Of a stretch of DNA of 64,000 nt, positions 5,848-61,800 are shown in pieces. The notes under the pieces were generated by a model. That model searched no databases, was not told where the DNA came from, and worked only from the letters and a program-made list of their open reading frames with translations. Location of the stretch: the NCBI RefSeq assembly GCF_041260155.1, contig NC_091947.1:27427615-27491614 (forward strand). The letters are read 5' to 3'. This stretch comes from Ptychodera flava. Its lineage: Eukaryota; Hemichordata; Enteropneusta; Ptychoderidae. Position 1 is the first letter of the stretch. Each line of letters opens with the position of its first letter. A program made the translations under genes and the position numbers.

Positions 5848-8800
5848 ATGAAACTTTTCGATATGATTTCACTGTCGGCAGTACTAGTGTTAACTTGTTT
5901 CTTTTTCGCGATAGCCTGCGGGTTCGACAAGGACGAATGGGTTCGTAATGCTGAAATTCAAGATCCAGGTATCGGAAAAATGTCTTTAACATTTATCATA
6001 TTCAGGGGAAACATCCGCATTCAACTTTATCAACTTGGCAAACGTTCGTCTTTATCTGATTTACCTGTATTGAATATTTAGGGCTTACTTTCTCAAGTGT
6101 GAAGGTACCGACAAAATATTCAACTCATATTTTTCGCAGTTATCACTGCTTTCTTTTGATTGCCTTTAAAACACCAATGCTTGCTTTCTGTTTCTGTTTT
6201 AACACTGAACCAGCATGCATACTTTTGTGTACACTAGCTTGTTCTGTTGTGTAAAATACGTTGTACATACGTCTGTATGTATGTATGTATGTATGTATGT
6301 ATGTATGTATGTATGTATGTATGTATGTATGTATGTATTTATACATGTATGTATGTATGTATGTATGTATGTATGTATGTATGTATGTATGTATGTATGT
6401 ATGTATGTATGTATGTATGTATGTATGTATGTATGTATGTATGTATGTATGTATGTATGTCTCTCTATCTATCTATCTATCTATCTATCTATCTATCTAT
6501 CTATCTATCTATCTATCTGCCTGCCTATCTGCCTGCCTGCCCGCCCGTCTGTCTGTCTGTCTGTCTGTCTGTCTGTCTGTCTGTCTATCTGTCTGTCTGT
6601 CTGTCTTATCTACCTACCTACTTACCTAAGTCTGATGCGTTGACAACAATCGATATATATATATATATATATATATATATATATATATATATATATATAT
6701 ATATATATATATATATATATATATATATATATATATGCATGCTGATGGCTATTAAGCTGTATGGGTGGTCTTCAATCGTAATACTCAAGTAGTAGACAAT
6801 TCATACCAACTGCAATAACTCATTCATTTCGCCATAGCGCGACTATTATATGCTATAACGCGAGAATGCTCGTACTAGAGAGCAAAATATTTTTATGGTG
6901 TAAACTTCCGTACAATCGATATGAGCTGCACTTATGGAGTGAGATCACGTCATTGTTAAAAGAATACAAATATCACGTTGTCACTGAGAGAGGTCACTCC
7001 GTTGTTGAAAAAACACCAATGTCATGTTTTATACGAGATGCCATGTCGTTTCGGCAAAACGATCGCACTTTCAAGTTTTGGCGATGTTGTAAAGTTTCTG
7101 CGTGTGTTGTTTTCACTCAATATATATGTATCTTTCTATGTTCACGTGTGTCTATAGTAATTACATATTCACATTTAAGGTAATATGCGCCTCAAAAGTG
7201 AAAGACTTAAACTTTTCCTCAAATTTTCCCTAAGGAACCCTTCAACCATTCTCTTTCAAAATCTGATAGCTAAGCTTTAAACGATTGCAGAGTATTACTG
7301 AACGATGGGTAGCAGACACCACATTCAGTAATCTAACCAACAGGGTGGAGAGACTGCGCGTGTAGAGGGAAACAGTCGTCGGAACAGCGCCTGTGCGAGT
7401 TTCTTGTTCACAAACAATGTATTTCGTGCAGGATATCAAGATGTACCTCATCATCATAGCTGCAACATTTAAATTATACGATGAAGATTATGACAGACAT
7501 GTTTGACCTTTCATCAATCACCAACGTGGTACTGGATACGGTGTTCACATTGGTCGTATGGGTCCCATAAGGGGGGGGGCTACGAGCTTTGAGCGCAGTT
7601 CCGATGACTGTATCCCTTTAAACTGAGGCCTTTAAAGTACACATTTGGTATACATAGAGATGGTCTCATTTACAATATTTTTGTAGTTTTCAGGGGACTC
7701 TTTCAAACCACACGGAAGCACAGTCTAAATACCATAGTCGAGTTTACGTTTTGGCCTGGATGTAGACCAAGCTCCACTTCAATGAATCGTCTGTATAGAC
7801 AGTATATCTTGGTCCCCTGTTCCCAGTTCTAATCCAAATACATTGTGCATCATCTAGCTCTTATTTGTTTTTCCCGCCCTACACTTTCGAATGATACGAC
7901 AAAAATGCATGAGTTTGAGTTCAGATTTGGAAACAACCATTTGGAAACAACAAAGCGTTTTGCTTAGGCCTATATTCTAATGATGCATTTCTAATTTATT
8001 TTTGTCGTATGTTTTCAGTTTGAAGTGCTAATTCTCTTGCATATTTTTCTGAGATAGAACAGATATACTGGCTTTCACAAGCACGTATTTTTGAGATCGT
8101 TTTGGTATGCGTTTAATGCCTACTATGTGACCGAGTAAATTTCTTGTCAAAGATACATTGAAGTATTGGAAGGAAGTTATTGCCCACTTAAAGATAGTTC
8201 TCCGTTTTAGGTTACATATAACTTCTTGACCCAACACTTTCTCTGTCTGAAATTCTCATATATAGTAAGAACAATTTTTAGTATTTGACGTTTCTTGGCT
8301 AGGAAGCGAACCATCCGAGTGCGTTCTTCGTTCGTTTTGTGTCGCCTGTTCCTTCCAAAGGACTACAACGTACGCCAAAAATAAAGTTGCGAAAGTACCA
8401 GATGTATAGTCACCCTTGATTTTTTTTGCAAATAAATTGTCCATGCATGCCGATGTTGAACAGTGATTCGGAGATTTTAAGAAGGTCCTACACAATACAA
8501 TTACAAATCAGGTTTTATCCTGTATATCTGTTGATTTGCAAATGATGACAAAAACAGTATTTTAAATTTCTTGGCCAAAGTTTTACAAATATCAAAGCGG
8601 AATAATAATTTTGCGATTACCTTTGTCGAAGTGTAGGCTTTACATAAATTTTACACTCAGCCCGCTGTATATTCTCTTGTCGTTCTACGTCACGAAAATC
8701 TGCGTCTATGTCATCAATTTTGGAGCGTCGGAGCTTTTTGCGTCGGTCTTCGATGTGATCGTCAATGTAAACAAACAACGTGGCGGCCTGTATTTCTCCC

Positions 8801-61200: not shown

Positions 61201-61800
61201 CCGTTTCTTGTGAGTAATATTAAAGATGCAGGAAGGGCGATTTATAAGATCATAACGGAGGGAGAAGGTAGTTCCCTAACACAGCCTGATGACTCTGATA
61301 GGAAGCTCTCTCATTATTATAAATTTTTTGAAATTGTGGAGGGTAATAAAATTGAAAATGAAACAACCATGGATTACACTGACACCTGTGATGCCACAAC
61401 TACCGCAAATACTGGAAGGCGATGTGGAGGACAAAGTAAACCATTTCAGCGGGTGCCGTACTCTTTCACGGGAGAGAGGGTGCCATTTCATGATGATGGT
61501 ATTTGGCCAATAATAAATGACCCCGAAGACCATAATTATCCTGCGGGCTCTGAAGTTAAGCAGCTTTCTAATCTTTTTAACAATCAGTATTCAAACTTGT
61601 TGCGGTGTATCCATGGGGCTTTCAACGGCAACCCACGAGGGATAAAGACGTGCATGTTAATAATGGCAAGACTTGGGTCGCTGGGACGTCAGATGGCCAG
61701 TACTCCGATCGATAGTAATGGCGACCAAAACATCGGTCCAAATGGTGCACCAACATTTGAATACATTGCAAACGACATTTTGAGCTCCGAAGACAACTAG
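58224..61800 (+). pseudogene. VioB/RebD-like copy D, exons 2 and 3, frameshifted
   Basis: Exon 2 is 58224-58493 (270 nt, phase-1 borders) with [19 protein letters not shown]. Exon 3 is 59188-61800. Relative to copy A, exon 3 has a one-base deletion near 59858 and another near 61080. The frame is therefore carried in three pieces: 59188-59864, about 59860-61085 and about 61085-61800. Motifs [22 protein letters not shown] and HYYKFFEI keep the acidic and histidine residues of the ferritin-like site. Several copy A cysteines around residues 884-913 are absent. Intron 2 is 694 bp and shares little with copies A and B. A 60795-60998 tract is almost identical to copies A/B, while its surroundings are diverged. 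It is a diverged paralogue that is broken as read; sequencing error is the alternative. Confidence 0.8.

Follow-up and report, generated by a model that had tools for sequence, protein, structure and literature searches.

A window of 64,000 nucleotides from the acorn worm Ptychodera flava (contig NC_091947.1, positions 27,427,615 to 27,491,614) contains four copies of a gene for a large protein with a PF12902 ferritin-like domain. One gene is intact (copy 1), two near-complete copies have frame breaks (copies 2 and 4), and one is a fragment (copy 3). A preliminary description of the window had named them bacterial-type imine dimer synthase genes. This label is too specific; judged from its sequence, the intact gene belongs to an animal lineage within the VioB/RebD-related ferritin-like superfamily, and its product is probably secreted and probably catalytic.

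Copy 1 is the only one of the four with an uninterrupted frame. It is composed of three exons with GT-AG borders, both introns are in phase 1, and it encodes 1039 residues. Its parts are as follows.

5848..5968, plus strand: copy 1 exon 1, encoding a hydrophobic leader (40 codons and one base; donor GTATCG)
10208..10477, plus strand: copy 1 exon 2, defined by GT-AG borders and translation, with WPRIHFSG at 10231
10925..13653, plus strand: copy 1 exon 3, intact, encoding the remainder of the protein including the stop
12430..13110, plus strand: PF12902 ferritin-like domain of copy 1 (residues 633-859)

The joined exons translate to exactly the P. flava database protein P0001 (100% identity, the best database match), which sits on a 39.1-Mb contig, and the start at 5848 and the length given in the preliminary description are thus correct. 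The leader encoded by exon 1 scored 2.86 in a crude test for hydrophobicity. Exon 2 includes a 12-residue stretch which aligns with the start of bacterial proteins.

The assignment to PF12902, proposed in the preliminary description, is far beyond chance: P0001 scored 191.4 bits (E-value 2.6e-56) against the Pfam curated cut-off of 22.3 bits, and the open frame at 10846-13653 gave an E-value of 2.2e-56. The domain has the ferritin-like helical fold of the superfamily. The profile comparison with hhalign, using 12 animal and 2 bacterial proteins against VioB from a genuine vioA-vioB locus, indicated the homology with VioB with probability 99.5 and E-value 1.6e-22 at 23% identity over 800 columns, nearly the whole length of both. 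Homology to VioB is therefore upheld, while the name imine dimer synthase is not. The VioB equivalog TIGR04492 scored only 19.8 bits on P0001 versus its cut-off of 1250, and 1908.1 bits on a VioB control from a vio operon. In a quick tree, a VioB/RebD-like group (3 VioB and 6 RebD-like proteins) was split from all others with branch support of 100 and lengths of 0.93 and 0.93, at a point where long branches meet; the RebD-like proteins (10 in all) are so named solely for matching VioB. VioA-like oxidases flank all three VioB genes, whereas only a short VioA-like stretch was seen at 2 of the 79 loci of bacterial relatives described below, and the best VioA match within the window had an E-value of 4.9.

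Six candidate metal residues of copy 1 are E640, E673, H676, E734, E835, and H851. Among 125 relatives, with VioB among them, each is retained in 122-125. At 35 positions, conservation of at least 90% is alike in the animal, all non-VioB/RebD, and VioB/RebD rows, and only 3 such positions differ. P645 in the TIPPYL helix is replaced by Leu in all 13 VioB/RebD-like rows. The animal family thus shares with VioB (violacein) and RebD/StaD/RedD (indolocarbazole), the imine dimer or chromopyrrolate synthases, its length, the order of its parts, PF12902, the six residues, and the 35 positions, and it differs in its approximately 23% identity, TIGR04492 score, tree group, and P645. Two further differences from the VioB/RebD systems are the hydrophobic leader and that no VioA/RebO partner was seen nearby.

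The leader distinguishes the animal proteins from their relatives. A strongly hydrophobic start was found by the crude test in 17 of 22 animal proteins and in none of 150 non-animal database relatives, 127 of which begin six residues ahead of the PRxxF-type motif; the other five animal proteins include probably incomplete or mispredicted models. In the acorn worm gene, intron 1 is some 3 codons upstream of where the bacterial initiator aligns (MSYL versus NSYL), which fits the addition of a leader exon before an acquired frame. The cysteines show a similar division. Cysteine 897 is present in 21 of 22 animal rows and C109 together with C115 in 19, while neither is seen in the 103 other rows; C109 alone occurs in 3/41 fused and 3/45 split bacterial rows. 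P0001 has 17 cysteines, versus 1-12 in the proteins of 19 bacterial loci where the gene is fused. An octocoral protein has EGF domains ahead of the enzyme part, and precomputed annotations list FN3 and Kazal domains in other animal members. These domains, the leader, and the extra cysteines predict an extracellular protein.

Homologs were collected with a protein search which scores only candidates sharing exact words, and the best 120 of 265 matches were considered. At least 22 animal proteins are among the matches listed, from Hemichordata (Ptychodera, Glandiceps, and Saccoglossus), Branchiostoma (four source names), and Anthozoa (Dendronephthya, Oculina, and Desmophyllum). A careful mixture-model tree built from 39 rows placed all 12 animal proteins in one clade (94/91) in which corals branch first, with three metagenome proteins as sister to the animals (100/100 for the joint group). 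A fourth metagenome protein joined them in the quick tree. Animals were all on one side of a branch in 95% of 200 bootstrap trees. The four metagenome proteins P0045, P0068, P0077, and P0176 have 17-21 cysteines, versus 1-12 in the 19 fused bacterial proteins. By this count the metagenome sister proteins look eukaryotic, and they may come from protists. Bacterial members are spread over many phyla, which makes an origin in bacteria the simpler inference. Most likely the gene line passed from bacteria into eukaryotes before the cnidarian/bilaterian split and persisted in few lineages, with both the transfer direction and the losses inferred. The proposal of an ancient lateral transfer or an overlooked eukaryotic branch is backed by the trees to this extent.

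The other copies in the window and the duplicated segment are as follows.

5466..27552, no strand: tandem duplication with a unit of about 12.5 kb, blocks 5466-15011 paired with 18079-27552
18410..18532, plus strand: copy 2 exon-1-like piece (tblastn 76% over 41 residues; blastn 90% over 302 bases)
22010..22279, plus strand: copy 2 exon 2, 95% identical to copy 1, with WPRIHFSG at 22033
22761..25500, plus strand: copy 2 exon 3-like region, 92% identical to copy 1, with three one-base insertions or deletions
29546..30196, plus strand: copy 3 fragment, limited to the first quarter of exon 3
43274..43336, plus strand: exon-1-like piece that may belong to copy 4 (21 residues, 67% identity)
58224..58493, plus strand: copy 4 exon 2, 80% identical to copy 1, with WPRIHFSG at 58247
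59188..61800, plus strand: copy 4 exon 3-like region, about 80% identical to copy 1, with two frame changes

By sequence comparison, copies 1 and 2 arose via the tandem duplication, whose blocks are about 82-90% identical in self-comparison (repeat families D12-D16). In clean exon blocks, the ratio of nonsynonymous to synonymous substitution rates (Ka/Ks) relative to copy 1 was 0.24 for copy 2 (966 codons) and 0.37 for copy 4 (937 codons), which indicates past constraint on both; for the fragment copy 3 it was 0.97 (209 codons), and no constraint is seen. A further P. flava paralogue, P0002, is located on a contig equal in length to that of P0001 and shows 70% identity to the query and at most 75% to every window copy. 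The family thus reaches beyond the window. The preliminary description had ended the cluster at 61800, where the last frame, that of copy 4, indeed stops. Its motifs fared unevenly: WPRIHFSG, claimed for four copies, is found in three and missing from the fragment copy 3. A 20-residue segment is present in all four; copies 1 and 2 match it exactly, and copies 3 and 4 differ from it by one substitution each. Three of the four copies have the ferritin-like site with EEMLHM and a 10-residue end. Copy 4 has the variants EFELSTIPPYL and DEMLHM and its own version of the 10-residue end. Bacterial contamination, already dismissed in the preliminary description, is contradicted by the introns, the tandem duplication, a non-long terminal repeat (non-LTR) retroelement, and the 39-Mb contig. 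No other enzyme gene was recognized within the 64-kb window. The long gap before copy 4 holds non-LTR retroelement-like frames (52206-56135) with a PF14529 endonuclease-reverse transcriptase domain and a YADD stretch. Long tandem arrays, in which the unit measures about 146-150 bases, are located at 45022-46303 and 47139-48252, and an array with a 21-base unit at 2948-3179 lies within a 160-codon open frame on the minus strand.

A genome scan confirmed at least 540 relatives, and 79 distinct loci were analyzed with flanks of at most 10 kb. The fused bacterial PF12902 proteins, such as those from Chitinophaga vietnamensis, Undibacterium, and Streptomyces nymphaeiformis, resemble the animal proteins in their two-part architecture, with approximately 29-31% identity over most of the length; they have no hydrophobic leader by the crude test and fewer cysteines, and the animals form their own clade. 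In the bacterial split pairs, an N-half of about 640 residues and a C-half of about 350 residues are encoded by two genes rather than one. The halves are separate adjacent genes at 45 of the 79 bacterial loci (among L009-L077), and N-halves of about 620 residues are common among the protein matches listed. The solved structure 3hl1 represents the lone C-half type. Some fused bacterial proteins adjoin ebo clusters. At least three of six ebo families were present in the flanks of 13 of the 79 loci, from Pseudomonadota, Bacteroidota, and Actinomycetota. These loci beside ebo metabolite-export clusters are L004, L005, L012, L016, L027, L028, L039, L053, L056, L058, L063, L077, and L079. The ebo family names were checked on representatives, where EboC scored below its cut-off. 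Passages of PMC6282210 report that ebo genes help to move scytonemin precursors to the periplasm in a cyanobacterium, and that in a Pseudomonas they lie within a cluster needed to repel nematodes. The words "ferritin" and "VioB" are absent from the main texts of the ebo papers PMC6282210, PMC5133447, and PMC9235831. The most frequent domains among 73 other neighbours were glyoxalase (7), ABM monooxygenase (3), and P450, methyltransferase, Omp85, and DAO (2 each).

Among eukaryotes, PF12902 genes from the fungus Gymnopus lie beside lodA/lodB-like quinoprotein oxidase genes, as described in part of PMC4417212; they resemble the animal family in being eukaryotic PF12902 proteins. PF12902 domains are also noted for Schistosoma haematobium vesicles in an excerpt of PMC7563238. 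Among the open-licence PMC papers listed for VioB, PF12902, RebD/StaD, and iminophenyl-pyruvate dimer synthase, no hemichordate, amphioxus, or coral member was found described. A protein of Branchiostoma floridae bears the UniRef name "Iminophenyl-pyruvate dimer synthase domain-containing", and the domain call itself is thus already in databases. Enteropneusts accumulate halogenated aromatics (a passage of PMC6315191) and acorn worms are listed among indole alkaloid sources (a passage of PMC11323739), which makes an aromatic substrate plausible, not proven.

The intact gene may, with about even confidence, be read as encoding a secreted dimetal oxidase of the animal PF12902 branch, which acts on small, probably aromatic, metabolites. 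The hydrophobic leader would send the enzyme out of the cell. A predicted N-terminal beta-rich part, with weak matches to immunoglobulin-like folds, would precede the C-terminal ferritin-like helical domain, whose four Glu and two His would give the ligand pattern of a dinuclear iron or manganese site. Most likely the enzyme uses O2 or H2O2 to oxidize or oxidatively couple a small extracellular metabolite, probably an aromatic amine or phenol. Several observations weigh against this reading. Only one of the four window copies is intact, and the animal clade in the quick tree of 93 rows (22 of 22 animal proteins) has weak approximate likelihood ratio test (SH-aLRT) support of 66. Two of 22 animal proteins depart from the six residues: P0025 has K at E640, and P0173, for which the end of the gene model looks faulty, is without E835 and H851. 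Two of 41 fused bacterial rows are without one or two of them. RebD-type enzymes are described as haem-containing in part of PMC10851217, which bears on the catalytic metal. The 73 neighbours counted beside bacterial relatives point to no common pathway. Among 249 Flavobacteriaceae genomes taken as a control, 46 have eboE and 10 have PF12902 (13 genes); 2 of the 13 PF12902 genes were within 5 kb of eboE, one of them in the L028 genome, which the genome scan also covers, and PF12902 is that near to eboE in 2 of the 46 eboE genomes. The link between ebo and PF12902 is real in places and not general.

The six residues bear on three other functions. Mn catalase has the ligand pattern Glu, Glu-x2-His, Glu, His. 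On this pattern and weak PF05067 matches of 12.8-14.5 bits (12.8 on P0001), the protein could be a secreted, Mn-catalase-like or rubrerythrin-like dimetal enzyme which removes H2O2 and guards mucus or skin, with no biosynthetic role. This is rather unlikely: the PF05067 cut-off of 27 bits is missed, the characterized relatives are biosynthetic, and the large conserved N-terminal half would be hard to place in a simple catalase. That the protein has lost catalysis and acts as a metal-binding structural or immune molecule outside the cell is quite improbable, since the candidate ligands are about equally conserved in animals, bacteria, and VioB, and P0025 and P0173 are the only animal exceptions. 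It is more doubtful still that the protein is a true imine dimer synthase, coupling two aromatic amino-acid imines supplied by an unlinked amino-acid oxidase, as VioB/RebD do. The nearly full-length VioB homology, the six residues common to VioB, the 35 conserved positions with only 3 differing, the DAO (FAD oxidoreductase) domain in 2 of 73 bacterial neighbours, and the indole alkaloids of acorn worms speak for it; the far-missed TIGR04492 cut-off, the separate distant tree group, the Leu at P645, and the scarcity of VioA-like stretches at the bacterial loci and in the window speak against it, and secretion would part the enzyme from a cytosolic unstable imine.

Origin by separate bacterial transfers into corals and deuterostomes, instead of one old eukaryotic acquisition, is highly unlikely. 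The patchy distribution, with named animals only from Hemichordata, Cephalochordata, and Anthozoa among the matches listed, and the weak quick-tree support for the animal clade would suit it, but the two support values of the careful tree, the bootstrap trees, and the C109/C115 pair confined to animal rows argue for a single acquisition.

The secreted dimetal oxidase could be extended to a specific role, although this is a long shot: a secreted animal VioB-type coupling enzyme in acorn worms, amphioxus, and corals, in some with EGF or Kazal domains, would oxidize or dimerize aromatics extracellularly. Its products, halogenated indoles, phenols, or quinones, would be host-encoded and not symbiont-made and would serve chemical defence or give light in mucus. 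If the protein is an active oxidase, it would represent an animal family related to bacterial alkaloid enzymes and probably kept since before the cnidarian/bilaterian split. It would also give a functional handle on bacterial PF12902 proteins, some of which lie beside ebo export clusters, and whether acorn worms and corals make their aromatic natural products themselves or owe them to symbionts would become directly testable.
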